The notes under the pieces: generated by a model | Database searches by the model: none | Seen by the model: only the letters and a program-made list of their open reading frames with translations | Told to the model about the DNA's origin: nothing | Shown: piece by piece, positions 11,157 through 43,568 of the stretch | Layout of the letters: each line of letters begins with the position of its first letter | How positions within the stretch are numbered: position 1 is the stretch's first letter | Program-made: the position numbers and the translations under genes | Virus record (IMG/VR): IMGVR_UViG_3300042905_001849 | Location: 1-43,568 of that record | DNA from: a virus | Strand: one strand, 5' to 3' | DNA: 43,568 nt

Positions 11157-11338
11157 GTGTGCCGCCCTCCTGTTGCACGGACCTCGACATCATCAATCAC
11201 CGGGACCGATTCCCATTCGTACCAACCGGCGTCTTCGAGTCCGGCCAGTCCTGCAATCAATCGCCGTGCTCTGAATTGCAGTGTTGGCTGCCCCTGTGGA
11301 TTCACCACGATTCGCAGGCTGCATGTTTTGACGTTCAT
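11009..11338 (-). CDS. Unknown small protein with doubtful C-terminal end
   Basis: A 109-residue reading whose ATG overlaps the stop of the RecT-like gene by ATGA. The first 60 residues look genuine (TCSLRIVVNPQGQPTLQFRA, AGLEDAGWYEWESVPVIDDV). The last 49, overlapping the next gene, are Ser/Gly/Arg-rich and look like an out-of-frame shadow. Either the overlap is real or an indel has removed an earlier stop. Function unknown. Confidence 0.45.
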   Translation of the reverse strand: MNVKTCSLRIVVNPQGQPTLQFRARRLIAGLAGLEDAGWYEWESVPVIDDVEVRATGGRHTCRQIYSGLHGCGSTGGRSRERPSLTGSPCDGSSTTEAAGVPGCGSWTV

Positions 11339-12832: not shown

Positions 12833-13023
12833 GGCACCCTCCCGACCATCCACCGGCTGCGTTTCTGCGCGTCGATTAACTGGACCAAATCCCACGTCTG
12901 TGCACCCGCTGCCGCCAGCAGGTTTCGCACGTTCAATTCTGCGGAATACTTCGCTGGTAAAATCAGCCGTTCGCCCGGCTTCATTGCCTGCAGCCGTGCC
13001 ACCAGTCGCCTGTCAATCATCAT
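12829..13023 (-). CDS. Unknown 64-residue protein
   Basis: A small basic protein (RRLVARLQAMKPGERLILPA, then SAELNVRNLLAAAGAQTWDL and KRSRWMVGRVP) with an alternating helix-strand pattern. It is coupled by ATGA to the CsrA-like gene upstream and to the zinc protein downstream. Its size and charge would suit nucleic acid binding, but nothing more can be said. Confidence 0.6.
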   Translation of the reverse strand: MMIDRRLVARLQAMKPGERLILPAKYSAELNVRNLLAAAGAQTWDLVQLIDAQKRSRWMVGRVP

Positions 13024-13289
13024 GGCTCTGGCCTCCCCTCCAGCTCTGCCCGCAGGATTTCGACGTCTCGCGGTGCGGAAAATGCCAGCCGTGCCCGGTC
13101 GCCGCGTATCTCGACCATCACCACCTCAATTGTGACATCACCACACCGGATGAGCACAGATTCCTGAGCCTTCCGCCCCAGCGTCAACACGCCGTTGCCG
13201 TCCGCATTCACTCGGAATTTTTTAACCTTGCTGACCGGCCTCGGTGCCTCCATTGGGACCGCTGCCACTGCTGCCTGTTTGCGTTTCAT
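13020..13289 (-). CDS. csrA: CsrA-like RNA-binding regulator
   Basis: An 89-residue protein. A basic 32-residue extension leads into a full CsrA domain at about 33-86: GVLTLGRKAQESVLIRCGD aligns with the first strand and turn of CsrA, and VTIEVVMVEIRGDRARLAFS and APRDVEILRAEL align with the following strands and helix. The two arginines that contact RNA in CsrA (R6 and R44 in E. coli) match R39 and R80 here. CsrA dimers bind GGA motifs at ribosome sites and change translation or mRNA stability. It is ATGA-coupled to rusA. Likely targets are host mRNAs or the phage's own GGA-containing leaders; the N-terminal extension is unusual. Confidence 0.85.
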   Translation of the reverse strand: MKRKQAAVAAVPMEAPRPVSKVKKFRVNADGNGVLTLGRKAQESVLIRCGDVTIEVVMVEIRGDRARLAFSAPRDVEILRAELEGRPEP

Positions 13290-16592: not shown

Positions 16593-16859
16593 TCAGCAGC
16601 CGCCAAACTCGACAACGCTCAGGCGGAATGCTTCGCCCTTGTCCGTCTTGCCCCACACATCGTAAGTGCATTCACCGTCGGCGTCTTCGACGCTCGCATT
16701 GGCTGCGTAGTCGATTTCGTCGATCCCTGTCAGCGCGTCTTCCATCCAGTCCAGATTGCCGGATGCTTCGACTCGCACGCGAACCTCAACCGTGCGGTCT
16801 TCGCTGATGCTGGTTGCGATTGCTGCGGACATCTTTGCGGCTCGTGTCGTCATCGTCAT
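16593..16859 (-). CDS. Acidic small protein, first gene of promoter 1 unit
   Basis: An 88-residue acidic protein. Two ATG codons lie six bases apart (16859 and 16853); the second has the better spacing from GGGAGA. The sequence has a helical Ala-rich start, then a strand-rich domain (VEVRVRVEASGNLDWMEDAL, ECTYDVWGKTDKGEAFRLSV). It is the only gene between promoter 1 and the hairpin at 16551-16577, so it forms a near-monocistronic unit. Small acidic early phage proteins often block host enzymes; that is only a possibility. Confidence 0.65.
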   Translation of the reverse strand: MTMTTRAAKMSAAIATSISEDRTVEVRVRVEASGNLDWMEDALTGIDEIDYAANASVEDADGECTYDVWGKTDKGEAFRLSVVEFGGC

Positions 16860-16883: not shown

Positions 16884-16899
16884 GCAACCCCTTAGTTGC
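16884..16899 (-). promoter_or_regulatory. Leader hairpin 1 with UAAGGG loop
   Basis: In the 5' leader of the 16593-16859 gene, GCAAC and GUUGC pair perfectly around the six-base loop UAAGGG. The same position of the other two leaders holds the same loop type on a different stem sequence, so the stem is conserved by pairing, not by sequence. Confidence 0.65.
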
Positions 16900-16911
16900 T
16901 CGCATGGGTAC

Positions 16912-16939
16912 AGTCTACACTATCGGCACGGTGTGTCAA
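16912..16939 (-). promoter_or_regulatory. Promoter 1 of the repeated family
   Basis: On the minus strand: -35 TTGACA (16939-16934), a 16-base spacer ending in the invariant GTGCCGATAGTG, and -10 TAGACT (16917-16912). The invariant 12-mer recurs in promoters 2 and 3 and is longer than expected by chance, so it may be an operator or activator site overlapping the spacer. It lies in the 145-base gap after the cytosine methyltransferase gene. Confidence 0.75.
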
Positions 16940-17004
16940 CCCCATTCAGACAAATTTGGAAGAATTTTCAGAACAGCACCCCCTGCCGCAGTCGTTCGGC
17001 TGCG

Positions 17005-17748
17005 TCAAATCTCGCCCTGCTGCTCAACGATGCGTCGTCCAATCCACTCAGCCACCTGTGGGACTACGGCGTTTCCGAGTCCTCGCAGTCGGTCCACCCT
17101 GGAGGGAATCCCATCAGATATTCCACCACTGTGACCGGCGGGTACACCAGATTCCACAACTGCCGAAAGTAGTCGCGTAAATTGTTCATTGGACCACGTT
17201 TCAGCCGTTTTTGCGACCTTCCCGCGCCTTTGCCGTCGCAGGCGTTTGGCGTCGGTGTGGTAGGCTGTGATAAACATTCTCTCGCGTAGGTGATGGTTGC
17301 CAAACTGCGCCGCGAATATGCAATCCCATTCCGCATCATACCCGATCGCGGCCAACGTCCCGAGAACTCTGTCCAGCCCCCGAGTAAGCAGCGCTGCCAC
17401 GTTCTCCAGCACCACGACTCTGGGCTGCAATTCTCGAACCACGCGAACGGCTTCGAAGAACAATCCGGACCGTTCGCCCTCAAGTCCTGCCCCGAGTCCG
17501 GCGTAGGAAATATCCTGACACGGGAACCCGCCGCAGACAACATCGACGGGCTGCAGGTTGTGTGCCCCACACTGCCGGATGTCTCGTTCTCTGTGAACTG
17601 CTGGCCAATGTTTTGCGAGCACTCTGTTGGCGTAATCGTCAATTTCCACCTGCCATTTGCAGACCATTCCAGCCCGCTCGAAACCCAAATCAAATCCGCC
17701 GATGCCTGCAAACAGGCTCCCGAATGTCAGCGATTGCCCGTCGCTCAC
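17005..17748 (-). CDS. dcm: C5-cytosine DNA methyltransferase
   Basis: A 247-residue protein with a GTG start four bases after the preceding stop. Motifs in order: I FAGIGGF (13-19, SAM binding), IV PCQ (76-78, catalytic Cys77), VI ENV (115-117), VIII QFGNHHLRERMFI (148-160) and X GLGNAVVPQV (233-242). It transfers methyl from SAM to cytosine C5 in a specific site. The target recognition stretch between VIII and IX is only about 70 residues, making the enzyme short for the family. No cognate restriction enzyme is present, so it is an orphan, probably protecting phage DNA from host restriction. Confidence 0.95.
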   Translation of the reverse strand: MSDGQSLTFGSLFAGIGGFDLGFERAGMVCKWQVEIDDYANRVLAKHWPAVHRERDIRQCGAHNLQPVDVVCGGFPCQDISYAGLGAGLEGERSGLFFEAVRVVRELQPRVVVLENVAALLTRGLDRVLGTLAAIGYDAEWDCIFAAQFGNHHLRERMFITAYHTDAKRLRRQRRGKVAKTAETWSNEQFTRLLSAVVESGVPAGHSGGISDGIPSRVDRLRGLGNAVVPQVAEWIGRRIVEQQGEI

Positions 17749-17751
17749 TGC

Positions 17752-17958
17752 TCAAATCTCCTCGCCTGTCAGGTTGTGGATTTCGATTTTGCTACTGCTC
17801 TGTGCCAGATGCAGCATCCCCGCAATGATCTGGTCCACGGTGTTCGCCGCCTCCTTCGCCGACGAAAATTTACGCGAGCGATACACAGGCGAGCTACCTC
17901 GCATCAGTCGCCACTGATAGAACCCGACGCCTGTTTTCACAATCTCAAAACGTATCAC
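17752..17958 (-). CDS. DUF1508 (YegP-like) small protein
   Basis: A 68-residue protein with one YegP-type unit: FEIVKTGVGFYQWRLMRGS, then PVYRSRKFSSAKEAANTVDQ, matching the family's 'FEIYK...WRWRL...SE.Y.SK..A..GI' pattern. These are small strand-strand-helix domains of unknown biochemistry, found in bacteria and phages. The GTG start overlaps the stop of the truncated methyltransferase as GTGA. Confidence in the family is moderate because the domain is short. Confidence 0.65.
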   Translation of the reverse strand: MIRFEIVKTGVGFYQWRLMRGSSPVYRSRKFSSAKEAANTVDQIIAGMLHLAQSSSKIEIHNLTGEEI

Positions 17959-18083
17959 CGTGTCCTCCGAATCTGAAACGTATTCACGATTGCGTGCACG
18001 GACTCATCCGGCAACCCCGCCATCACCTCCCTGCAGTCCCCGTGGTACAGCGTGACGCCGTCCTGCTCGAAGTATGGTGTCAT
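17955..18083 (-). pseudogene. Truncated N-terminus of a DNA amino-methyltransferase
   Basis: A 42-residue frame that starts exactly like N4/N6 DNA methyltransferases of the DPPY class: YFEQDGVTLYHGDCREVMAG, then LPDESVHAIV. In intact enzymes that last phrase is followed at once by the catalytic TDPPY; here it is replaced by NTFQIRRTR and a stop. The catalytic motif, the SAM-binding motif and the target domain are missing. It still has an ATGA overlap with the upstream gene and a GTGA overlap with the next, so the reading frame has been kept, perhaps only for translational coupling. Confidence 0.7.
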
Positions 18084-18268
18084 TGTTGTGGCCTCAGCAT
18101 TTGTGCCGCCGAATACTCACTCACACCTTCGCATGTCCTCACGTAATGCCGCACCGGATGTCCTGGTTTTACATGCACGCCGACGATAACGCCGCGATAC
18201 CATGCATTGTGCCACCAGACCTCAACCGCTTCACCCCTTGCGTACTCGATCACGTTCCAATTCATCAC
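18080..18268 (-). CDS. Small beta-rich protein (SH3-like pattern)
   Basis: A 62-residue protein (61 from the ATG) reading like a small barrel: VIEYARGEAVEVWWHNAWYR, GVIVGVHVKPGHPVRHYVR, then CEGVSEYSAAQMLRP. The 'V.VWW...WYRG.I.GV' pattern is seen in small SH3-like or Tudor-like domains. Start is either GTG overlapping the upstream stop or the adjacent ATG. Function unknown. Confidence 0.55.
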   Translation of the reverse strand: MMNWNVIEYARGEAVEVWWHNAWYRGVIVGVHVKPGHPVRHYVRTCEGVSEYSAAQMLRPQQ

Positions 18269-18477
18269 TCACCCCCATACGGTTTGCATTCCGACCGCAG
18301 CACAACCACACCAGACGTTGCATCGACAATCTGCCACCACTCGATTCCCACTGCCTGCACGGCCTCTGTGGCTGCAGCCTTCGCCGCATCCAGCGTCGGA
18401 TAAATGCCCAGCAGATCATTCATGCCGCCGGATGGGTAGTACACCTCACCGCCAAATAACCAGTGCCAGCCTGTCAT
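18265..18477 (-). CDS. Unknown 70-residue protein
   Basis: A compact protein: WHWLFGGEVYYPSGGMNDLL, a helical stretch TLDAAKAAATEAVQAVGIEW, then a strand pair (WWQIVDATSGVVVLRSEC). It is ATGA-coupled to the helical gene before it. The strand-helix-strand layout resembles other small proteins of this operon (for example 16279-16524), which hints at repeated use of one small fold. No family recognised. Confidence 0.6.
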   Translation of the reverse strand: MTGWHWLFGGEVYYPSGGMNDLLGIYPTLDAAKAAATEAVQAVGIEWWQIVDATSGVVVLRSECKPYGGE

Positions 18478-18680
18478 TGTTTCACCCCCTCCAACGTGAC
18501 GATGGCTGTTTTCAGCGCGTTGCGCGTAAGCTGAATGCGATTCAGCACACCTCGCAAAAACGCCTCCAGCCCACCCTCACCGAATTCAGCGTCGTGCTCC
18601 TCTGGTGTACTCTGCTGCATCGCTCCTGCAATCATTTGCAACATTCGCTGTTCAGCCGCATTCAAATCGCTCGTTCTCAT
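18474..18680 (-). CDS. Small helical protein
   Basis: A 68-residue protein starting at the ATG that overlaps the upstream stop (ATGA). It is all helical, amphipathic and acidic (DLNAAEQRMLQMIAGAMQQS, EAFLRGVLNRIQLTRNALKT). No domain recognised. Confidence 0.6.
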   Translation of the reverse strand: MRTSDLNAAEQRMLQMIAGAMQQSTPEEHDAEFGEGGLEAFLRGVLNRIQLTRNALKTAIVTLEGVKQ

Positions 18681-19885
18681 TCCTTCACCCTCCAAGCAAT
18701 GACATCATCGTACCTACCCGTTGACTCCCGCCAGTCCTCGATGGTCCATCCATCCCGCCGCAGCGAGTCTACGCTGTCCTGCGTCTGGATGTCCTCGATC
18801 ACGTACACGCCGCCGGGTCTCAACCGACGCCCCATGACCTCAGCAGTTGCCGTGTAGTCGTAGTACAGGTGTGACCCATCGTCGATGATCAGATCCAGCA
18901 CTGGCACCGCTCGGGCAATCGTTCGCGCATCCTCCGGCATGACGCCAAACATCACAGCAGGCCCGCAGTGACTCTGTGACACGTCTCGGTCTACTCCATA
19001 CACATCTGTCACACCAGCAGCCTGCCAAGCCCTCAGACTGGCCCCGCGATATACCCCAATCTCCAGCACTGCCGTCGGTCGCAGCCGGGCAAACAGCTCG
19101 TCATAGAATGACCCGTAATTGTGCGTAGAGACTTTGTCGGACCCGTAGACGCTCAGCCACTGACTGACACGCATTCCCCGCGCCCGTTGTCCGTGCTCGC
19201 GATAGTCTGCAGATGCCTGCCCGCTTGGTGCAATCGCTGCATCGACCGCCGCCAGATCCACCGGCCACGCATCCGGCTGCCAATTGCCCGCAGGGGTGCC
19301 CCTGTACTTCGGCAGCGTGCTGGTCTCAGCGTCCCCGTGGCGTACCCAGATCCAGCCAGGCTTGAGCGATGCTCGGACACTCCGCCATTCCCGCTGAATC
19401 ACAGCATGCGCTTTGTGGTGTGGGTCAATGCCCCGAGACGTGCTCAGTGTCAGATATTGATTCCCCTTGTGCTCCAAGCGGAACATCTGCCCGCGCCAAT
19501 ACACCAGGCCAACAGGCCAGATAATCGCCCGCTCGCGGTGCACCATTCCGCAGTGATGAACGATCTCGCAGAAGTCAGCGCGCAACACGTCATCATCATC
19601 AACACGCCCGATGATGCAGTGCCCTTCCGGGATCTGCCAGCTCTCGCCGTACAGCTGCCACGTGTCCCGATACAGCACAACGCAATCGCAGCCAGTGCCA
19701 GCGTATCCTGCCAGTCGTTCCTGCAGGTGCACGTCATCTGCAGAGACCACGATGTGCAGCGTGGGCTTTCGCGTCTGCGCTGCCAGACTCGGCAGCAGTG
19801 TGGCTCGGCTGATCTCAAGGCGCCTCAAAGACAACACCGGGTCCGTGTAATGGGACATGATGCAGAGAATGTGGGGACTGGTCAT
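18677..19885 (-). CDS. Glycosyltransferase-methyltransferase fusion
   Basis: A 402-residue two-domain protein. Residues 1-235 resemble rhamnosyltransferase-like/GT-A enzymes: LCIMSHYTDPVLSLRRLEIS, LLPSLAAQTRKPTLHIVVSA, and the acidic metal/nucleotide site IGRVDDDDVLRADF (DDDD 96-99). Residues about 240-402 are a class I SAM-dependent methyltransferase: motif I VLEIGVYRGAS (273-283), the acidic end of strand 2 YGVDRD (296-301), DLIIDDGSH (331-339) and LRPGGVYVIEDI. Such fusions build and cap glycans by O-methylation. In a phage it may decorate virion or host surface sugars, or hydroxylated DNA bases. ATGA-coupled on both sides. Confidence 0.8.
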   Translation of the reverse strand: MTSPHILCIMSHYTDPVLSLRRLEISRATLLPSLAAQTRKPTLHIVVSADDVHLQERLAGYAGTGCDCVVLYRDTWQLYGESWQIPEGHCIIGRVDDDDVLRADFCEIVHHCGMVHRERAIIWPVGLVYWRGQMFRLEHKGNQYLTLSTSRGIDPHHKAHAVIQREWRSVRASLKPGWIWVRHGDAETSTLPKYRGTPAGNWQPDAWPVDLAAVDAAIAPSGQASADYREHGQRARGMRVSQWLSVYGSDKVSTHNYGSFYDELFARLRPTAVLEIGVYRGASLRAWQAAGVTDVYGVDRDVSQSHCGPAVMFGVMPEDARTIARAVPVLDLIIDDGSHLYYDYTATAEVMGRRLRPGGVYVIEDIQTQDSVDSLRRDGWTIEDWRESTGRYDDVIAWRVKE

Positions 19886-20142
19886 AGAACGTCCCCTCCC
19901 AACAGAGTCTCAATCGCACCGTCCACGTCCTGCGATGGCACTGCGTATGACTCCTCTTCATCGTCCTCGTGCATCAGCATGATCCGCTCAGCGTTCTCTA
20001 GCGTGTCGGCCACTTGAATCGCAGCCTTTGCCACGCCGATCAGCGTCTTCAAATCGGCGATGAATTCGGGAGGGTAATGCGGTTGCCAGTGCTCCGCCCA
20101 CTGCTCCAGACGTTCAATCGTTTTTGCCAGTTCGTCAGTCAT
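19882..20142 (-). CDS. Small acidic helical protein
   Basis: An 86-residue protein, helical in the first half (ELAKTIERLEQWAEHWQPHY, PPEFIADLKTLIGVAKAAIQ) with a very acidic centre (HEDDEEES). Coupled by ATGA to neighbours on both sides. No family recognised. Confidence 0.6.
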   Translation of the reverse strand: MTDELAKTIERLEQWAEHWQPHYPPEFIADLKTLIGVAKAAIQVADTLENAERIMLMHEDDEEESYAVPSQDVDGAIETLLGGDVL

Positions 20143-20363
20143 GTTTGCCCCTCCTGCAAAATCTGAATCGCCTTAACCACGTCGTCAAATCTCAGCCAAC
20201 TGCCGTCTGCATAAGGCACCATTATTTCTGGCCGAAACGCCTTTGTTCCGCAGTTGTACCGCTGTGCCCGCTGCAGCACCTGCAGTGCCCGCTGGATGCG
20301 GTCCTCACGCCTGCCGATCATAGATGATGCCTCGCTTAACGCCCGCTGTGTTGAGTCACTCAT
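20139..20363 (-). CDS. Small helical protein
   Basis: A 74-residue protein; the ATG chosen overlaps the upstream stop (ATGA). It is mostly helical (ALSEASSMIGRREDRIQRAL, QVLQRAQRYN) with the segment MVPYADGSWLRFDDVVKAIQ near the C-terminus. No family recognised. Confidence 0.6.
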   Translation of the reverse strand: MSDSTQRALSEASSMIGRREDRIQRALQVLQRAQRYNCGTKAFRPEIMVPYADGSWLRFDDVVKAIQILQEGQT

Positions 20364-20947
20364 TCTGTCACCCTTTCCACATTCCAAACTGATTCCCCGA
20401 TACACCGCACAACAAACCGAATGCCGCGCTTTTTGAACCGCCATTTTGCCCGGACGATATCGCACCTTTCGACGCCCCGCACGACTGTACCCTGACCCGC
20501 TCGCAGACGCTCAACGGCCCGCATCACTCGCGACAATTCCGCCTCACGCCTGATCCTGATGGTTTTGTTTTTCGGCAGCTTCAAGACGGTCGGGACCGAA
20601 TCCCGCACGACCACGCGAAACCTGTACGGCCTTCGCAGCACCCGCGCCCACTCATTCAGCTTCACCACGCTTTTCTGCACGGCCACCGGATCACGCCCCG
20701 GAAACCTCCGGGACTTGCCGGTCTTCCACTCCGGACTGTCGGCAACCTCGACCGACTCGACCAGCCATACCCGCAGCCCGTCCGGCGTCCTCAGTGTCTT
20801 CAGCCGCAGCCCGTCGCTGCGTTCAGCGTTCAGGGTGCCCACGCCCCTGCGGATCTGGCGTTCCTCGCAGGACGGTACCGTCAGGAGTGTGGATTGCCCC
20901 AGCGTCAGATCCTGCAGGTTGTGACGTCTGATTGCCAACGGAATCAT
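20360..20947 (-). CDS. Basic protein of unknown function
   Basis: A 195-residue, strongly basic protein. The start overlaps the upstream stop by ATGA. The sequence is strand-rich and Arg/Lys/Val-heavy (SDGLRLKTLRTPDGLRVWLV, RPYRFRVVVRDSVPTVLKLP, RAKWRFKKRGIRFVVRCIGE). Such a charge suggests nucleic acid binding. It lies between two small unknown proteins in the long coupled operon. No motif identifies an enzyme. Confidence 0.6.
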   Translation of the reverse strand: MIPLAIRRHNLQDLTLGQSTLLTVPSCEERQIRRGVGTLNAERSDGLRLKTLRTPDGLRVWLVESVEVADSPEWKTGKSRRFPGRDPVAVQKSVVKLNEWARVLRRPYRFRVVVRDSVPTVLKLPKNKTIRIRREAELSRVMRAVERLRAGQGTVVRGVERCDIVRAKWRFKKRGIRFVVRCIGESVWNVERVTE

Positions 20948-21381
20948 CGCCCCGCCCTCCGCTCCAAATACTGCTCTCGTGCTGTGTCCGGATTCCACCC
21001 CAAACATTCATAGACCGCCCGCCAGCGTTCCTCATGTGTCTCCGGCGTGCAGTCCTCCGCAGCCTGCAGCACCTCGCCTAATCGCCTATACGCCTGCCAC
21101 TGCCGCAACGTCTGCCGCCAGAATGTCTCAACGACATGCAACCACTCGCCCAGCCCGCAATCGTAAAATGTGCAGTCATGGCGGAACACCGCCCGATATC
21201 TCGGATCGTACTGCACATGACTCGTGCACGCTCCGCTGATGACCTCGCCCGTAATGCGTCCGTTGCGGTCGACCTCCAGAAACCAATCTGACACCACCGG
21301 GATTGGCGGACAGTGCTCCAGCAGGTGCTCACGCTCACGCGCTGCAAAGGCCCTCAAGGACTCCAGTTGTTGCTCACTCAT
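20944..21381 (-). CDS. Unknown 145-residue protein
   Basis: An acidic, Trp- and Cys-containing protein. The first part is helical (LESLRAFAAREREHLLEHCP). The middle is beta (VVSDWFLEVDRNGRITGEVI, YRAVFRHDCTFYDCGLGEWL). The end is helical again (WRQTLRQWQAYRRLGEVLQA). Cys residues in the middle (HDCTFYDCG) could bind a metal. ATGA-coupled to the HD-domain gene before it. No family recognised. Confidence 0.6.
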   Translation of the reverse strand: MSEQQLESLRAFAAREREHLLEHCPPIPVVSDWFLEVDRNGRITGEVISGACTSHVQYDPRYRAVFRHDCTFYDCGLGEWLHVVETFWRQTLRQWQAYRRLGEVLQAAEDCTPETHEERWRAVYECLGWNPDTAREQYLERRAGR

Positions 21382-21869
21382 GCCGCACCCCCGATCGTAA
21401 TGAATTCACGCACCAAATCCGCCCACGACTTCGCCGGAAACTGATACAGGTCATATGGTGCCCGACCCTGCTGTATCTGCTCCAACTCCCACGCGCCGAC
21501 GGCCCTGTCTGCAGCAATGACTGCCTCCCAGCTCATGCTGCCAGGCTGCGGAACTCGCATCGGCAACCGCCGCACGATTGCAGCGTCAATCTCATCCTGA
21601 TCCATCCGCAGCCGTGCTGTCACATATGGTCGCACCACGTCGCCTGTCAGCACCTCGTGGCAATCGTGCAGCAATGCCCACAGCCGCGCCCTGTCTGATG
21701 CCGTTGGGTCAGCGTCCACGCGCTCAAACACGTGCAGACTGTGCCGCAGCACAGTGCAGTTCGGCACCTGCCCGCCGAATCGGTTGATGCGGTGCAGGCA
21801 TTCCGCCACACGCTGCGGATCATTGCGGATTGCGTTTGCCAGTTGTTCGGGTGTTTGGATAAGACTCAT
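21378..21869 (-). CDS. HD-domain phosphohydrolase, complete paralogue
   Basis: A 163-residue HD-superfamily protein of the YfbR/5'-deoxynucleotidase-like type. Metal ligands in order: His43 (VLRHSL), His68-Asp69 (LLHDCHEVLTGDV) and Asp121 (AADRAVGAWELEQI). These enzymes remove phosphate from nucleotides. Residues 1-100 are nearly identical to the protein at 23880-24350, and the shared DNA around 21741-21790 is almost base-for-base the same, so the two are recent duplicates. This copy keeps the last ligand and so is likely active. A phage use could be altering nucleotide pools or countering nucleotide-signal defence. Confidence 0.85.
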   Translation of the reverse strand: MSLIQTPEQLANAIRNDPQRVAECLHRINRFGGQVPNCTVLRHSLHVFERVDADPTASDRARLWALLHDCHEVLTGDVVRPYVTARLRMDQDEIDAAIVRRLPMRVPQPGSMSWEAVIAADRAVGAWELEQIQQGRAPYDLYQFPAKSWADLVREFITIGGAA

Positions 21870-22135
21870 GGTACCTGTTCCTCCTTAAAAGCCCGACGGA
21901 TCTCCGCCAGCACTGCGTCGACAGCCTGCTCAGCAGTGGCACCGACTGCGTGCGTCCACGGCCAGCCGCTGCTGCGGACGCTCCAATGCTTCACGCCTCC
22001 GACTTTCGGCGGACTGACTCGCATCTCAGCAAAAAACAAATCCATCCGCTCAATTGCCGATTGCAGCTTTTTCCGCAACTCCGCGTTCTCGGCCTCCAGT
22101 TGTTGCATTTCCCTTTCCATCATTTCGCCACTCAT
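21866..22135 (-). CDS. Small coiled-coil protein
   Basis: An 89-residue protein. Residues 5-35 form a coiled coil (REMQQLEAENAELRKKLQSA). A short domain with Trp and Gly follows (VGGVKHWSVRSSGWPWTHAV), then a helical end (EQAVDAVLAEIRRAFKEEQ). The last two parts resemble a small strand-helix domain seen in several proteins of this operon. ATGA-coupled to both neighbours. Confidence 0.6.
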   Translation of the reverse strand: MSGEMMEREMQQLEAENAELRKKLQSAIERMDLFFAEMRVSPPKVGGVKHWSVRSSGWPWTHAVGATAEQAVDAVLAEIRRAFKEEQVP

Positions 22136-22506
22136 GACCCTTTTTCCCCCTCTGCCTTAAGCTCCGCGGCCCGTCGGTAATACCACCTCAAAATATGCTG
22201 CAACCCAGCATCACGACTCACAAAAAACTTATCCAGATCCGCAGCCCACTCCGGCTCCAGTGTCACGGTTGCCTGCAGGCTTGCGTTTACCTGCGCGACC
22301 GCCGCCTGCAACTCAGCATTCTCGCGTTGCAGATCCTGCACCCTGCGACTAAGAGTTTCCCACGTGGCCTTCAGCATTCCTTGCAGTGCCTCGATCCTCC
22401 ACTCTGGAGAATCTGTGTCAGCCCGTTTCCGCGGTGGTGGTGGCGATGTCGGACGGTTTTCCGGCTGTTCGCCGGATGGTGGTGGTGTAGGTTGTTTTGC
22501 ACTCAT
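22132..22506 (-). CDS. Pro-rich N-terminus plus coiled-coil protein
   Basis: A 124-residue protein: residues 1-30 are a Pro-rich unstructured tail, 33-80 a coiled coil (ALQGMLKATWETLSRRVQDL, NAELQAAVAQVNASLQ), and 85-124 a helical end (EWAADLDKFFVSRDAGLQHI). The start overlaps the previous stop by ATGA. Three neighbouring proteins carry coiled coils, so they may form a complex. Confidence 0.6.
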   Translation of the reverse strand: MSAKQPTPPPSGEQPENRPTSPPPPRKRADTDSPEWRIEALQGMLKATWETLSRRVQDLQRENAELQAAVAQVNASLQATVTLEPEWAADLDKFFVSRDAGLQHILRWYYRRAAELKAEGEKGS

Positions 22507-23369
22507 GGTACCTGCCCCTCTGCGTCGTCCTCAATCAGTCGCGACGCAATGCCCGGCAAATATCCCAGCACAGCCACAGCCAGCGGGCTGCAGTCGTCGG
22601 GATGTTCTGCGACCAACTCCAGCACTGGACGCAGCCACGCCTGCATCGCCTCCAATACCTGCTGTCGCCCTGCCGATGCTCTGCTGTGCTCAATCGCTCC
22701 GGCCAACTGGTTTCGGTACCGGTCGCGTTCCCGCGTCAGCGTCTGCAGCTGTTCCCGCAACTCCTGCAGTTCGGCGTTGACCTGCTGGCCTCTGATGCAA
22801 CTTTCGTGATATGCAGCCGCCATCGCGTCCCGCTCTTTTGTTATCTGCTCCTGAGACGCGATCAGTTGCGCGAAACGTTGCTGTGCTACCATTTGCTCGT
22901 GTTGGTGGTGCCTGCGCAACTGTTCCATCGTCTCCGGCTCGCTGTCGCTCGGCTGCTGTGGCTCGATACGACGGCGGTATGTGCCACCGCGGCCCTCGCG
23001 TGCGAGCCTTCCCGGCACCCTCGTGCGAAGCCACAGGCCGGTATTGTTTTTCAGCATGTCGCCGTCCTGCAACAATTCATCCGGCTCAACATCCCGCCAG
23101 CCCGGCCCGCTTGGGTCGTCTGGGGTTAGCTGTGGCTCTGGTTGTGGCTCTGGTTGTGGCTCTGGTTGTGGCTCTGGCTCTGCCTGTTGTTCGATGCGTC
23201 GGCGGTAAACACCTTGCCATGTGCATCGGGAGCCAGCAGCGTCGGTGTGCACGAATCTCGTGCCATCGGAGAGCATGTCACTCGATTGCAGAATTTCGCC
23301 CACCTCAACATCCCGCCACCCCTCGCCGCTCGGGTCGTCTGCCTGCTGTGTTTGTTGTTCGTCGCTCAC
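22503..23369 (-). CDS. Tandem-module coiled-coil protein
   Basis: A 288-residue protein. Two copies of a roughly 55-residue module (DDPSGEGWRDVEVGEIL and DDPSGPGWRDVEPDELL, each ending YRRRIE) are joined by a Pro-Glu-Pro-Gln repeat that is encoded by 12-base tandem DNA repeats. Residues about 145-235 are coiled coil (HHQHEQMVAQQRFAQLIASQ, QQVNAELQELREQLQTLTRE). The end is a helical tail. Overall layout is like the protein at 9758-10897. ATGA- and GTGA-type overlaps tie it to its neighbours. Role unknown; scaffold or adaptor is plausible. Confidence 0.65.
   Translation of the reverse strand: MSDEQQTQQADDPSGEGWRDVEVGEILQSSDMLSDGTRFVHTDAAGSRCTWQGVYRRRIEQQAEPEPQPEPQPEPQPEPQLTPDDPSGPGWRDVEPDELLQDGDMLKNNTGLWLRTRVPGRLAREGRGGTYRRRIEPQQPSDSEPETMEQLRRHHQHEQMVAQQRFAQLIASQEQITKERDAMAAAYHESCIRGQQVNAELQELREQLQTLTRERDRYRNQLAGAIEHSRASAGRQQVLEAMQAWLRPVLELVAEHPDDCSPLAVAVLGYLPGIASRLIEDDAEGQVP
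23131..23178. repeat. Four tandem 12-base repeats coding Pro-Glu-Pro-Gln
   Basis: Four units of TGTGGCTCTGGT (the last with one change) in frame inside the gene at 22503-23369. Copy-number change by slippage would lengthen the linker between its two modules by four residues per unit without breaking the frame. Confidence 0.9.
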
Positions 23370-23563
23370 TGCTTTTCCTCCTCATTCCCAATAGACTGCT
23401 GATGCACGGTAATCAATCGCCAACCGCTCCATTCACCACGTTTCACGCCGGCCTTTAGCGCCTTCACCAGCGAAAGGTGCGATTTGTGCCGGCTCGCAAA
23501 ATCCACCCATCGACAATTGCCCAGTGCCGGCTCAAATTGCAAAACCATTGCTCGCAATTTCAC
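23366..23563 (-). CDS. Small basic protein, GTG start
   Basis: A 65-residue protein starting at GTG, which overlaps the upstream stop as GTGA. The sequence MVLQFEPALGNCRWVDFASR, HLSLVKALKAGVKRGEWSGW and RLITVHQQS suggests a small strand-helix-strand domain. No family recognised. Confidence 0.6.
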   Translation of the reverse strand: MKLRAMVLQFEPALGNCRWVDFASRHKSHLSLVKALKAGVKRGEWSGWRLITVHQQSIGNEEEKQ

Positions 23564-23865
23564 TTGCCGTCCTCCCTCTGGATCTGTGGTTCTGCTGCTG
23601 CCAGTTCCGCAGCCTCATACCATATCGAGTCGTCGATCGGCCCTCCTGCCGAAATCAACGCCACCGCAAACCGCCGCGTCAGTTCCTGACGTTCCTCCTG
23701 CTCCGGCGTGATGCTCGCGTCTGCCCACTCGCCGCAGCGGTCTGTTGCCGCCGACTGCGGGACCGTCCCGTCAGTGTCCATTGGCGGATTGCGTCTGCAC
23801 ATTCCGTAGGACGCAAATGGATACCGATCCCACCACCGACAATTCTCACACCTTCGTTCTGTCAT
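23560..23865 (-). CDS. Cys-rich small phage protein
   Basis: A 101-residue protein after a GGAGGTG site. The N-terminal 45 residues hold CENCRWWD, a CRRNPP segment and CGEWAD, giving four or more cysteines in a layout common in small phage zinc-binding proteins (C-x2-C-x-WW). The C-terminal half is helical (EEQERQELTRRFAVALISAG, DSIWYEAAELAAAEP). Function unknown; zinc binding is inferred from the cysteine pattern. Confidence 0.65.
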   Translation of the reverse strand: MTERRCENCRWWDRYPFASYGMCRRNPPMDTDGTVPQSAATDRCGEWADASITPEQEERQELTRRFAVALISAGGPIDDSIWYEAAELAAAEPQIQREDGK

Positions 23866-23879
23866 CGTCACACCTCCCC

Positions 23880-24350
23880 TCAAAAGCCCACATACCGAAA
23901 AATCTCCCTCGGCATACACCGAAGGGTGTTGAGGCAATGCGCTCGCATCGCCTGCTCTGTCACTGGCCGGCCCAGCTGCCGCTCGACCTCCTGCAGGAAG
24001 TCCCGCCACCTCGGCCTCTCCAAACCCATTTTCACCCACTCCCGATGCCGCCGCACAATCACCGCGTCAATTGCCTGCTGATCCATCCGCAAACGCGCAT
24101 TGACATAGGGGCGCACCACATCCCCCGTGAGTATCTCGTGGCAGTCATGCAGAAGTGCCCACAGCCGCGCACCGTTCGAAGCTTCCGGGTCAGCGTCAAT
24201 CCTGTAGTACACTTCCAGGCTGTGCCGCAGCACAGTGCAGTTCGGCACCTGTCCGCCGAATCGGTTGATCCGGCCCAAGCACGCCGCCACCCGCTCCGGG
24301 TCCGTGACGATTGCCTCTGCCAGTTGCTCTGCTGTTGTTATCAGTCCCAT
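23880..24350 (-). CDS. HD-domain phosphohydrolase paralogue, divergent C-terminus
   Basis: A 156-residue protein, nearly identical in its first 100 residues to the one at 21378-21869: His43, His68-Asp69 and the segment LLHDCHEILTGDVVRPYV are all kept. After residue 100 the sequences part. This copy has RRHREWVKMGLERPRWRDF and ends QAMRAHCLNTLRCMPREIF; it lacks the Asp-Arg-Ala segment that supplies the last metal ligand in the other. It may be inactive, regulatory or altered in substrate. It starts after GGAGGGG and follows a terminator, so it may begin a transcription unit. Confidence 0.75.
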   Translation of the reverse strand: MGLITTAEQLAEAIVTDPERVAACLGRINRFGGQVPNCTVLRHSLEVYYRIDADPEASNGARLWALLHDCHEILTGDVVRPYVNARLRMDQQAIDAVIVRRHREWVKMGLERPRWRDFLQEVERQLGRPVTEQAMRAHCLNTLRCMPREIFRYVGF

Positions 24351-24362
24351 TGTGCCCCTCCG

Positions 24363-24387
24363 AAAAAACGCCCGCCGGTTGGCGGGC
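24363..24387 (-). terminator. Intrinsic terminator after the 40-residue gene
   Basis: On the minus strand, seven-base GC arms (24370-24376 and 24381-24387) around a four-base loop are followed by C/G and six T. It lies six bases past the stop of the gene at 24393-24515. Confidence 0.85.
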
Positions 24388-24392
24388 TGATG

Positions 24393-24515
24393 TTACACCG
24401 ACTCCACCACACCGCCCACCAACGCCGCAACTGCGTCTGCCTCCGTGTGCGATTGATAGACCCCGAACCGAGACCGCCCACCGTTGCTCAGCCTAATCCA
24501 GACTGCCCACTGCAT
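24393..24515 (-). CDS. 40-residue protein
   Basis: A small protein (MQWAVWIRLSNGGRSRFGVY, then QSHTEADAVAALVGGVVESV): two strands and a helix. The ATG has GAGGGA eight bases upstream in a leader that shares CTGATCCCTCAA (plus strand) with the 81-residue gene at 16279-16524. It is framed by a hairpin on each side. The small size makes it uncertain, but the matching leader, the terminator just after it and the natural composition support it. Confidence 0.55.
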   Translation of the reverse strand: MQWAVWIRLSNGGRSRFGVYQSHTEADAVAALVGGVVESV

Positions 24516-24535
24516 GATTCTGATCCCTCAAAAAC

Positions 24536-24568
24536 CGATTGGAAACCCGGCAGACAGTCCGCCGGGTT
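24536..24568 (-). terminator. Hairpin after the zinc-knuckle peptide gene
   Basis: Eight-base arms (24544-24551 and 24561-24568) around a nine-base loop are followed on the minus strand by TCCAATCGGTTTTT. The T run is displaced, so termination may be partial and allow read-through into the 40-residue gene. Confidence 0.55.
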
Positions 24569-24575
24569 GGTTGTC

Positions 24576-24665
24576 TCACTCTGCCAGCACCTGCCCGCAG
24601 TCTGCACAGATGGTCTGCGGGTCGCTCGTGGTCGGTAGGCTGATGCTGTCGTGTGGGCAGGTCAT
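24576..24665 (-). CDS. 29-residue zinc-ribbon-like peptide
   Basis: A 29-residue peptide reading MTCPHDSISL, then CADCGQVLAE. Cys3 and His5 together with the Cys-x2-Cys pair at about 21-24 can bind one zinc ion. GAGGTGA lies just before the ATG, inside the end of the preceding gene region, and the start is nine bases past that gene's stop, so the two are co-translated. A minimal zinc knuckle may bind RNA, DNA or a host protein. Confidence 0.55.
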   Translation of the reverse strand: MTCPHDSISLPTTSDPQTICADCGQVLAE

Positions 24666-24674
24666 TGTGTCACC

Positions 24675-24962
24675 TCAGGCCGTCTGCAGGTTCCGCTTCT
24701 GCCATCCGGCAACTACGCTCATCGCTGACCGCACTGCGGGCTGTGCTTTGAGTGCGGCAAAGTCGGATTCTGCCAGACGTCCAATCGCGTCTACAGCCGC
24801 TTCCATTGCCGTGTGGCATTCTGCGATCAACTCTGCCCGTCGGTGCATACGCTTAAAAATGGTTGTCGATGACAAGTGACCACTTGTCAGGCTGTAATTG
24901 ACTTCTTCGCTGAATGCTGCTGCGGCTGCCAGAATCAGAGTTTTTGCTGTGTTGACTTCCAT
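24675..24962 (-). CDS. Small helical protein, first gene of promoter 2 unit
   Basis: A 95-residue, Ala-rich helical protein (TAKTLILAAAAAFSEEVNYS, RRAELIAECHTAMEAAVDAI, GWQKRNLQTA). It starts at the ATG following a GGGAGA site in the leader of promoter 2. The leader shares the hairpin and the sequence ACAAACACTCAA with the LPD29 gene leader, so both respond to the same control. It is followed by the 29-residue peptide. Function unknown. Confidence 0.65.
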   Translation of the reverse strand: MEVNTAKTLILAAAAAFSEEVNYSLTSGHLSSTTIFKRMHRRAELIAECHTAMEAAVDAIGRLAESDFAALKAQPAVRSAMSVVAGWQKRNLQTA

Positions 24963-24995
24963 CACTGTATCTCCCGGTCTTGAGTGTTTGTTCCT

Positions 24996-25011
24996 CGCGG
25001 CCCTTACCGCA
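24996..25011 (-). promoter_or_regulatory. Leader hairpin 2 with UAAGGG loop
   Basis: UGCGG pairs with CCGCG (one U-G pair) around the loop UAAGGG in the leader of the gene at 24675-24962. It stands at the same distance from the promoter family's -10 box as in the LPD29 leader and shows the same loop with a changed stem compared with leader 1. Confidence 0.65.
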
Positions 25012-25018
25012 CGTCCAC

Positions 25019-25046
25019 ATCTTACACTATCGGCACAACGTGTCAA
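25019..25046 (-). promoter_or_regulatory. Promoter 2 of the repeated family
   Basis: On the minus strand: -35 TTGACA (25046-25041), a 16-base spacer with GTGCCGATAGTG at its end, and -10 TAAGAT (25024-25019). It lies just downstream of the terminator that closes the LPD29 unit, so it restarts transcription. Confidence 0.8.
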
Positions 25047-25070
25047 CGGTCTTTCGGACAATCTGCAAAG

Positions 25071-25103
25071 AAAAACAAAAAACCCCGGAGAGTGTCCGGG
25101 GTT
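25071..25103 (-). terminator. Strong intrinsic terminator after the LPD29 gene
   Basis: Minus-strand nine-base arms AACCCCGGA and TCCGGGGTT (25081-25089 and 25095-25103) with a five-base loop are followed by a T-rich run (TTTTGTTTTT). It sits nine bases past the stop of 25113-25685. Confidence 0.9.
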
Positions 25104-25112
25104 CGGGGGCTG

Positions 25113-25685
25113 TCAGGCTGTTGCCAGTTCTTCCGTTCGTCGCATCCAGTAATCCAGCGTTTCTCCGTCGTGATACAGCTTCCAACTTTCTGCCCCGTTG
25201 TCATTGATGCCGTACCGTTGTACGGCTCGCTTCCGCAGGTCTGCTGTGTACTCGGCTGACAGTTCCCGCACCGGGCTGATGTATTTCACATTGCTGTCAA
25301 CCAGAACGGCTCCCGGCTCGGGGCAGTCGGTTGCGTATCCCTTGACGTGCCCCATTGAACCTGAAGTGCCACGGCTTTCGGCTGAAGCCATTTCGCCGGA
25401 CGGCAGCAGCCAGTTACGGCTGATGTATTCCAGATCAATGCTGCCATCAAACCCGCCGAAGGTGAACTGACGGCAGATGTCCAGCACCTGACCGCTGCGG
25501 GGTCCGTCTGTCCAGCATACCCTCATTGCGTTGCTGTCACTGCGGACGCTGAATTTGACCACTGGGAACGCCTTCTTCAGGGCTGCCCGAATCAGGACTG
25601 CAACGTCCTTCGCTGCCAGATAGGCAATGCCGCGTTCGTTGCGACTGTTGCGGGCGGTTTCGATGATCGTCTTGACGTTTGCCAT
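25113..25685 (-). CDS. LPD29-domain protein, promoter 3 unit
   Basis: A 190-residue protein. The region from about 22 (LAAKDVAVLIRAALKKAFPV, VKFSVRSDSN) to about 85 (VCWTDGPRSGQVLDICRQF, FGGFDGSIDLEY) matches the LPD29 domain of large polyvalent and small phage or plasmid proteins, whose molecular job is unknown. The rest has a short Cys-containing middle and a helical end (YTADLRKRAVQRYGINDNG). It forms its own unit: promoter 3, leader hairpin, gene, terminator. The leader has ACAGGAC just before the ATG, which is a good CsrA-type site. Strong isolated expression suggests an early phage function. Confidence 0.8.
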   Translation of the reverse strand: MANVKTIIETARNSRNERGIAYLAAKDVAVLIRAALKKAFPVVKFSVRSDSNAMRVCWTDGPRSGQVLDICRQFTFGGFDGSIDLEYISRNWLLPSGEMASAESRGTSGSMGHVKGYATDCPEPGAVLVDSNVKYISPVRELSAEYTADLRKRAVQRYGINDNGAESWKLYHDGETLDYWMRRTEELATA

Positions 25686-25717
25686 TGTCCTGTCTCCCGG
25701 TTTGAGTGTTTGTCCCT

Positions 25718-25733
25718 CGCGGCCCTCACCGCG
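25718..25733 (-). promoter_or_regulatory. Leader hairpin 3 with UGAGGG loop
   Basis: CGCGG and CCGCG pair perfectly around the loop UGAGGG in the leader of the LPD29 gene. Compared with leader 1 (GCAAC/GUUGC) every stem position that differs is compensated, which supports an RNA structure. Confidence 0.7.
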
Positions 25734-25741
25734 ATGGATGT

Positions 25742-25769
25742 AGAATACACTATCGGCACCGCATGTCAA
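25742..25769 (-). promoter_or_regulatory. Promoter 3 of the repeated family
   Basis: On the minus strand: -35 TTGACA (25769-25764), a 16-base spacer ending GTGCCGATAGTG, and -10 TATTCT (25747-25742). Upstream, between the glycosyltransferase stop and the promoter, is a small AAUCU-UUCG-AGAUU hairpin. This 119-base gap holds nothing else. Confidence 0.8.
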
Positions 25770-41830: not shown

Positions 41831-42089
41831 TCACCTGAACTCCTACGTTGACCACTGGGGCGGTGTTCTGCGTTGGCAATGGATGATTCTGCGCATTCAT
41901 CGCAATCAACACCCGCGCTGCTGCATTCTTTTCGCGATTGCTTCCGGTGGCCAATATCTGCCCGATCACAATTCCGGCTCGCTCAAACAGCGCATCCGGA
42001 ATCTGCCAACTTTTGCGGATTGCTGTCTCGACTTCCCGCAGGTCCTTGCGGGTATGTGCCGGATCAGTCAGCAGTGTGGTTTCGGTCAT
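41736..42089 (-). CDS. Terminase-adjacent small protein (TerS candidate)
   Basis: A 117-residue protein. Its helical N-terminal half (TRKDLREVETAIRKSWQIPD, GIVIGQILATGSNREKNAAA) is followed by a Pro/Asn linker and a short strand VNVGVQVNGSGN, then a basic helix. The gene is directly upstream of terminase large and coupled to the Mom-like gene by ATGA. TerS proteins have this size and place, with DNA-binding helices at the start, but the sequence is not diagnostic. Confidence 0.5.
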   Translation of the reverse strand: MTETTLLTDPAHTRKDLREVETAIRKSWQIPDALFERAGIVIGQILATGSNREKNAAARVLIAMNAQNHPLPTQNTAPVVNVGVQVNGSGNTDAGRTLASAIAERIRANRISQQPAG

Positions 42090-42877
42090 TGTGTTTGCTC
42101 CGATGTCTGTTCTGAATCGGAAAGCGTCCGGGTCGGATTTGCACCGCCCACTTCAGGCTGGTCGCCTGACGTGTCGCTATCAACACTTCGGACGCGTGGT
42201 TTCCCTTTGTACATTCCGGCCCCTCGCCGGTCAATCTCTGAGAACGGAAGAATCGGAACTGTGAGGCGTTCGCGGGCGGTTGGGTCGATGAAATAGATGT
42301 AGCGAAGTTGAAAGCCTGGCAATGGCGCACCGCCGCTGTTTGCAAAGAAACTCATTGATGATGCGCCTCCGGTTTGGCTTGCGTGCTTCATGCTTCCAAT
42401 TCCGGGGCGAAGTGTTGAGGTCGCAATAACCTTGCCGTCACCTAATTTCCAAATCTCTTTATTTTGCTTGATCCCCGTCAGCACGAATCCGCTTGCTCGA
42501 TAGATCGTTCCATCTCCACACTGGCAACCATCCGCAAACGACACGCACCACTTCAACTGTGGGTACTGCTTCCGCATCCAGCGAAACGCAAAACCCAACG
42601 CCCGGCTTTCCCCGTTGCGTGGCAGCCAGTCCGCAAACGCCATCCGGTTCAATTCGATGAACTCATTCCACAGCGTACCACGCACCAGCCCCTGAATCTT
42701 TCGCTTATCCAATGACGGCCCGAATTGCATCGCTCCGCCACACTTGCCATCGAGAAACACGCCTAAGTGCAACTGCGAATTTTGCACCGTCTTGCCGCTG
42801 TAGTGCAGGCTTTGCACGATGCGGTTGGCGTCCTTTGCAGATATCGGCTTTACGATCAATCGCTTCGCGTCACCCAT
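42086..42877 (-). CDS. mom: Mom-like DNA adenine modification protein
   Basis: A 263-residue protein. The first 190 residues match phage Mu Mom: LHYSGKTVQNSQLHLGVFL, GGAMQFGPSLDKRKIQGLV, WNEFIELNRMAFADWLPRN, RALGFAFRWMRKQYPQLKWC, and SFADGCQCGDGTIYRASGF. Mom proteins convert adenine to N6-(methylcarbamoyl)adenine, which blocks many restriction enzymes. The C-terminal 70 residues are unlike Mom and hydrophilic (DTSGDQPEVGGANPTRTLSD). The gene overlaps the ParB-like stop by eight bases. Expression with late genes would fit modification before packaging, but no Com-type translational activator has been proved. Confidence 0.88.
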   Translation of the reverse strand: MGDAKRLIVKPISAKDANRIVQSLHYSGKTVQNSQLHLGVFLDGKCGGAMQFGPSLDKRKIQGLVRGTLWNEFIELNRMAFADWLPRNGESRALGFAFRWMRKQYPQLKWCVSFADGCQCGDGTIYRASGFVLTGIKQNKEIWKLGDGKVIATSTLRPGIGSMKHASQTGGASSMSFFANSGGAPLPGFQLRYIYFIDPTARERLTVPILPFSEIDRRGAGMYKGKPRVRSVDSDTSGDQPEVGGANPTRTLSDSEQTSEQTQ

Positions 42878-43499
42878 TGAAGGCCTCGCATATCGCCGCC
42901 AGTGCGTTTCCGTTGCTGTTCTCGTTTACTTCCGACGATCCCCCGCCCGCGGCTTTCGCCTTCTTCAATGCCGCCTCAATCGCCTCAAACTGCGAATCAT
43001 GCACCGTAAACGTCATCTGCCGAAACGGCTCACGGTCGCCTTCGGCCAGTTCGGGCGGTGCGATTTCCTGCGCGTCGTATCCCAGCAACTTCCCCAACTC
43101 CTCCGCATCAAATCCAGTCAACCCCAAATCAATCTCGTCCGCGTGCAGGTCCTGCAGTTCATTCGCCAGCATCGCCTCATCCCAACCGCTGCTCAACGCA
43201 ATCCGGTTGTCCGCCAGGATGTACGCTCGCTTCTGCGCGTCCGTCAGATGGTCGAGTCGGATGCACGGGACCGTCTGGAGCTTCAGCAGGTCCGCGGCCC
43301 TCACCCGGCCATGCCCGGCAATGATGCCGTTCGCCTTGTCGATCAGAACCGGATTGCAAAAGCCGAACTCTTGAATGCTGCCGGCAATCTGTGCCACCTG
43401 CGCGTCGCTGTGCGTGCGTGCGTTGCGTGCGTATGGGATCAGGTCCGATGTCGGCACCTGCTCGACCTGCTGCGTTCCTGTGGGCTTCTTTGACGCCAT
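42870..43499 (-). CDS. ParB/Srx-fold protein at the packaging end
   Basis: A 209-residue protein. Residues 10-95 are the ParB/Srx fold: VPTSDLIPYARNARTHSDAQ, GSIQEFGFCNPVLIDKANG, the phosphate-binding box GIIAGHGRVRAA (58-69) and YILADNRIALSSGWD. The C-terminal part is acidic, then a Ser/Gly-rich helix end. Such proteins often precede terminase or adenine methyltransferase genes in phages and may bind or nick DNA. The fold is that of ParB-linked methylases without the methylase part. The start has a GGGGG tract next to it but no ideal ribosome site. Confidence 0.8.
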   Translation of the reverse strand: MASKKPTGTQQVEQVPTSDLIPYARNARTHSDAQVAQIAGSIQEFGFCNPVLIDKANGIIAGHGRVRAADLLKLQTVPCIRLDHLTDAQKRAYILADNRIALSSGWDEAMLANELQDLHADEIDLGLTGFDAEELGKLLGYDAQEIAPPELAEGDREPFRQMTFTVHDSQFEAIEAALKKAKAAGGGSSEVNENSNGNALAAICEAFNG

Positions 43500-43568
43500 C
43501 CCCCTGACCCCCTGATTTTTCGGCCAAAACTGCAAACAAAACAAACTCTAATCATACGGCGACCACCG

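Follow-up and report, generated by a model that had tools for sequence, protein, structure and literature searches.

The window analyzed here, the whole 43,568-nucleotide (nt) IMG/VR virus record IMGVR_UViG_3300042905_001849, raises the question of why three of its small genes share a promoter and an RNA hairpin, and whether these signals form one regulon with a DNA and an RNA control element, as proposed by a first-pass annotation of the sequence. Read directly, all three promoters lie on the minus strand, which that annotation had left unstated, and have the layout TTGACA-N4-GTGCCGATAGTG-TAnnnT with a 16-bp spacer. They are located at 16912-16939 (site 1, TTGACA-N16-TAGACT), 25019-25046 (site 2, TTGACA-N16-TAAGAT) and 25742-25769 (site 3, TTGACA-N16-TATTCT), and their spacers contain the identical 12-mer GTGCCGATAGTG. 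The only exact copies of this 12-mer in the window are those of the three promoters (simple arithmetic gives a chance expectation of ~0.005 exact copies), and the next best match has two mismatches. Each promoter is the top sigma-70-like match of its region, scoring 10/12.

The three hairpins, also on the minus strand, read as previously described. At site 1 (16884-16899, presumed transcript start 16905), the stem GCAAC/GUUGC encloses the loop UAAGGG and is extended by additional outer GC/GC pairs beyond an internal loop; at site 2 (24996-25011, presumed start 25012), UGCGG/CCGCG encloses UAAGGG; and at site 3 (25717-25734, presumed start 25735), CGCGG/CCGCG encloses UGAGGG, with six base pairs when the flanking U-A pair is counted (UCGCGG/CCGCGA). 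The leaders of sites 2 and 3 both contain ACAAACACTCAA and a GGGAGA ribosome site. Within the window alone, covariation is thin because two of the stems share an identical 3′ arm, and taken singly, the leaders have unremarkable folding energies (z −0.3 to −2.7).

Relatives provided a stronger test. A first scan of viral contigs used the promoter only (TTGACA-N4-GTGCCGATAGTGTA), was blind to the hairpin and returned eight contigs, seven of which carry it (the exception is L006; L and G numbers are our handles). With further leaders from looser scans and from contigs fetched via TerL and DnaB, the total reached 27 distinct leaders in ~18 related viral contigs. Invariance of the loop is partly selected, as URAGGG (R, A or G) was required in some scans; the promoter-only subset has the same loop. 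Among promoters with the spacer motif GCCGATA in GC-rich loci, URAGGG follows in 25/29; the scan imposed no pairing there, yet all 25 have a stem of 4 bp or more.

Covariation was computed from a set of 24 distinct hairpins. Pairing is kept in 96/96 cells of the four inner stem pairs, each of which shows two to four pair types, and in 23/24 cells of the fifth pair. For a seven-pair stem, 86% of cells are paired, compared to 25-49% in slid structures and 52±3% in shuffles; cells with double changes number 57 versus 20±3 in shuffles, a count reached in none of 500 shuffles. Every stem position thus varies together with its partner, while the loop stays U(A/G)AGGG. Arms that vary around a fixed loop are the mark of an RNA and not of a DNA palindrome, and the hairpin is genuinely an RNA element. 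The first-pass proposal would have fallen had related phages lacked covariation or other copies; they provide 27 leaders and strong covariation, and the original observation is confirmed and stronger than claimed. From this combination of covariation and an invariant loop, we infer that the loop is recognized by its sequence and the stem only by its pairing.

Several further features recur among the leaders. A pyrimidine-purine step lies at −10+6/+7 in 27/27, and transcription probably starts there; the presumed start positions given above are based on this step. In 15 of the 27, the stem begins 1 nt past the presumed +1, and the linker 3′ of the hairpin is rich in A (46%) and poor in T (5%). 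A pseudoknot between loop and linker (UGAG with CUCA) was considered and dropped, as CUCA is missing from many leaders. Rfam returned no match at the gathering threshold and nothing meaningful at relaxed thresholds up to E 10; the RNA element is new to this database. A leader model gave zero matches in Planctomycetota genomes, a null that does not count given how short the model is.

What stands behind the leaders differs from case to case. Cassette 1 encodes 88 residues without family assignment (16593-16859, minus strand), followed by the terminator-like hairpin CACCCGCTGCACAGTGTGGCGGGTTTCTC. The 95-residue product of cassette 2 (24675-24962, minus strand) also lacks a family; a homologue with 82% identity in L011 likewise lies behind an equivalent leader. 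The open reading frame (ORF) of cassette 3 (25113-25685, minus strand) encodes 190 residues with an LPD29 domain (PF18847, E 1.4e-17), is preceded by the ribosome site CCGGGAGA and is followed by an intrinsic terminator at 25080-25104 (minus strand; GAACCCCGGACACTCTCCGGGGTTT TTTGTTTTTC). One small ORF of 59-190 amino acids lies behind every leader examined, and usually a terminator-like hairpin, for example GCCCCCGGAAACGGGGGCTTTCTTT, lies 3′ of it, some with weak T tails. These ORFs belong to ~20 unrelated families, few of them common to several contigs. The same protein can occur behind different stems: one ORF, 100% identical, follows an AUCGCGG stem in G311 and a CGACUGC stem in L007, the GKLVTV ORF follows GCAAC in L004 and UCGCAC in G314, and a third ORF has differing stems in L009 and L081. 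The leader is therefore not tied to any one gene but portable. Most of the 27 cassettes have their own promoter, a single gene and their own terminator, as expected of morons, and the element is a portable 5′ leader of moron-like, interchangeable single-gene cassettes. Separately, an altered, promoterless leader copy (GCGACTGCTGAGGGCATTCGCAGC...CCGGGAGA) was seen immediately 3′ of the L011 ORF that starts at 11198; the ORF that follows this copy has the full module in G014.

The promoter motif follows a different distribution. In AT-rich phage contigs of 20-170 kb, TTGACA-N5/6-GCCGATA-n-TATAAT occurs up to nine times per contig with the hairpin absent, and a reversed control pattern gave zero matches. 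These promoter-only phages have essentially no proteome in common with the window. Conversely, the related G319 has 5′ hairpins without GCCGATA. The spacer motif and the hairpin are thus separable elements. Of the proposed single regulon, a repeated promoter and a covarying RNA leader, both conserved in relatives, hold up; the DNA motif does not belong to the same element, and a set of interchangeable single-gene cassettes describes the data better. GCCGATA slides by a few bases relative to the −10 box, which suggests a protein site within the spacer as a better fit than a sigma contact. Such promoters typify large AT-rich contigs (G007, G008, G009, G010 and G011, for example L162-L175 and L180-L181), where many single-gene early promoters read TTGACA-N-GCCGATA-n-TATAAT without a hairpin; variants there include TGTCGATA, and one precedes a tRNA-like sequence. 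In G013 (L021:10172-10330), two GCCGATA promoters stand in tandem, and past the second lies a 5′ hairpin of 9 bp capped by a GAAA tetraloop. Searches for host use of the promoter gave no match to the strict pattern in 85k species, 14 scattered matches to a looser one, near the estimated chance level, and the pattern in 1/294 Planctomycetota genomes, where GCCGATA is not enriched. The literature on GCCGATA promoters yielded unrelated k-mer matches only.

Sister lineages carry other hairpins at the same place. G319 (L215:18984-19480, L216:14078-14130) has three 5′-end hairpins with the conserved apex GCAAGGUGC and variable outer stems, and by reading, the ribosome site 18-23 nt further on in these mRNAs repeats GCAAGG. 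G320 and G480 have one 5′ hairpin each, with other loops. In G309 and G310 (L012, L030), the 5′ hairpins that lie past GCCGATA promoters have CGGAC loops, which contain GGA as in CsrA sites; a PF02599 search found no CsrA on these contigs. Such lineage-specific loops would fit a co-evolving reader.

A search for small proteins conserved across the clade brought up a candidate for this role. The window encodes a CsrA homologue (13020-13289, minus strand) of 89 residues with an N-terminal extension of ~33 residues (PF02599, 47.8 bits at a cut-off of 27), which we consider a putative reader of the hairpin. Genes for CsrA are reported in only 1.2% of phages (PMC7366521). PF02599 scores above cut-off in nine TerL-family contigs (G014, G308, G314, G012, G319 with two copies, G320, G321, G322 and G480) and in none of the promoter-only phages; the near-full-length contigs of that family covered by the search all have csrA. 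The RNA-contact residues are conserved: in the aligned phage protein, the equivalents of CsrA L4, R6, R7 and R44 are L, R, K/R and R. Where a contig encodes this CsrA subtype and extends 4.3 kb or more upstream, the leader is present (6/6); it was not seen in L270, where 3.9 kb are available and the contig may end before it. A separate observation concerns L004:5196-5329, where csrA looks broken, the first 28 and last 17 residues abutting as if the middle had been deleted.

We infer that the leaders act through a partner that reads the loop. The module itself is established, together with its spread, the constraint at the RNA level and the exchange of ORFs. It consists of a strong sigma-70-type promoter, a 5-8-bp hairpin from about +2, an A/C-rich unstructured linker, a GGGAG site, one small early-type ORF and, usually, an intrinsic-terminator-like hairpin at its end. 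A sequence-specific partner, most likely the phage's own CsrA-family protein, would read the loop post-transcriptionally: a CsrA dimer would hold the hairpin loop in one site and the G-rich Shine-Dalgarno in the other, and translation or stability of all cassettes would be switched jointly as in Escherichia coli glgC, with a shifted loop motif. The leader geometry is compatible with this arrangement. In 26/26 leaders, the loop is followed at a distance of 19-26 nt by GGGAG, which contains GGA, and this gap falls inside the published range for CsrA bridging (10-63 nt, optimum >18; PMC7652899). An internal GGA was rejected as a general second loop site, occurring in only 9/26 leaders.

Several points weigh against this assignment. 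High-affinity CsrA loops are ANGGAX (PMC4005645) and the Campylobacter jejuni CsrA motif is mAwGGAs (PMC6692469); GGA (ANGGA) is found in 0/27 loops and appears regularly only at the Shine-Dalgarno. The relatives G320 and G480 carry csrA, and the loops of their 5′ hairpins are quite unlike URAGGG. Common descent, moreover, confounds any association between csrA and the leader. The protein itself is divergent (32% identity to E. coli CsrA), and although strand order in a single-chain AlphaFold model fits five strands plus a helix, pLDDT is low (63.5) and no fold match was obtained in the PDB. The first-pass annotation had hinted at a CsrA-like protein: the window does encode one, but the canonical site is absent. 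As the GGA loop motif, a defining feature, fails, we do not class the leader as a CsrA site; a CsrA-like mode of action remains plausible with a protein that is divergent and extended. We rate CsrA-type two-site control somewhat short of an even chance. More tentative still is the broader proposal of a private post-transcriptional regulon, in which a divergent phage CsrA and URAGGG hairpins would place any small gene behind the leader under joint control and sister lineages would possess their own loop/CsrA pairs.

In the main rival, the loop would mimic a Shine-Dalgarno sequence: the hairpin would guard the 5′ end from pyrophosphohydrolase and 5′-dependent nucleases, the exposed RAGG(G) would retain a 30S subunit in a STAB-SD or standby role, and cassette mRNAs would in this way persist for long or be translated well. 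Upstream of gene starts, no 4-mer is more enriched in these phages than GAGG (81 versus 12; GAGGG, 39 versus 3.5). Directly past the terminator of several cassettes, the next gene uses TGAGGG as its ribosome site, and with either A or G at the variable position, the loop can pair with CCUCCUUUCU, the 3′ end of the 16S rRNA as found in planctomycete genomes. The hairpin begins at about +2, RppH prefers unpaired 5′ ends, AAGG is exposed in the G319 leaders too, and STAB-SD and the aprE 5′ stem-loop provide precedents (PMC3997798). Yet only one of the six loop positions varies, where many purine-rich loops would serve, TAAGGG is not enriched at starts (0/473), and the G320 and G480 loops have no Shine-Dalgarno character. 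On balance, we find this explanation doubtful.

Unlikely, in our estimate, is a different reader that uses the loop as a translational operator, be it a small RNA whose seed is CCCUYA or an RNA-binding protein of phage or host origin other than CsrA. The fixed loop with a freely covarying stem is the pattern expected, and loops vary by phage lineage as with lineage-specific operators; however, CsrA is the only candidate among clade-conserved small proteins with Pfam hits, most such proteins being without family. We regard as improbable an antitermination signal of nut or put type, by which RNA polymerase would read past cassette terminators into promoterless genes. Such genes do lie within tens of bases 3′ of terminators and the hairpin sits at the transcript start, but the cassettes hold single genes, the next one has its own promoter, the leader has a single short hairpin, and a stem within ~0-6 nt of the presumed start leaves no room for a boxA on its 5′ side. 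Very improbable is that the inverted repeat is a DNA operator, despite a strongly conserved promoter spacer that is probably bound by something, or that it recurs only through recent duplication, since an operator should have conserved arms and instead the arms vary around a fixed loop, stems are not the same even within a genome or among orthologous cassettes, and the pair counts disfavor both.

Gene content points to a likely planctomycete-type host. Full-length TerL homologues (30-36% identity, E down to 1e-111) are present in ~15 of 149 Planctomycetota genomes, compared to a best, partial match of 9e-20 in 150 genomes of another phylum. No close isolated phages were found by megablast or tblastn, the best TerL match having 27% identity over half the protein. 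Other genes of the window encode a DNA methyltransferase (17005-17748), two paralogues resembling 5′-deoxynucleotidase (YfbR-like, HD domain; 21378-21869 and 23880-24350, minus strand) and, just upstream of the terminase, adjoining Mom-like DNA modification and ParB-like proteins (42086-42877 and 42870-43544, minus strand).

Phage-encoded CsrA is known, but its targets within the phage are obscure (PMC7366521; JC1, PMC9144972). By pairing csrA with a defined, repeated and covarying RNA element in the same genomes, this clade makes the question of CsrA targets experimentally tractable. The cassettes show exchangeable early genes being expressed to a common standard. Moreover, the GCCGATA spacer promoter in proteomically unrelated phages points to an unrecognized promoter feature that several phage groups use, probably via a shared or related host.

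Among known systems, CsrA/RsmA leaders (E. coli glgC, Pseudomonas fluorescens RsmE targets) resemble the phage leaders in their hairpin in the 5′ untranslated region, six-nucleotide purine-rich loop, second G-rich site at the Shine-Dalgarno with ~20-25-nt spacing and csrA in the same genome. They differ in the loop, URAGGG here versus ANGGAX (PMC4005645), and in the candidate protein, which here is phage-encoded, divergent and N-terminally extended. The nearest published phage analogue is the extended start-associated sequence (ESAS) of cluster K mycobacteriophages, which with the start-associated sequence (SAS) forms a repeated element, part inverted repeat, 5′ of many unrelated small phage genes (PMC3203893). 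ESAS are sequence-conserved 17-bp imperfect repeats beside GGGATAGGAGCCC, whereas the phage leaders are hairpins with variable arms, a fixed loop and their own promoter; the defining combination of GGGATAGGAGCCC near the start codon and 17-bp inverted repeats (PMC3203893, PMC12699233) does not occur in them. Nor do they have a boxA 5′ of the hairpin as in lambdoid nut sites (boxA-boxB). Stabilizing 5′ stem-loops (ompA, papA, aprE) and STAB-SD share the hairpin at the extreme 5′ end, the A-rich unstructured linker and Shine-Dalgarno-like purines, but generic stabilizers need no invariant loop, while that of the phage leader is conserved over ~20 cassettes. Phage morons, finally, are likewise transcription units complete in themselves, with one gene each, and they vary among related phages; in this clade, by contrast, one promoter type and one RNA leader are common to all units.

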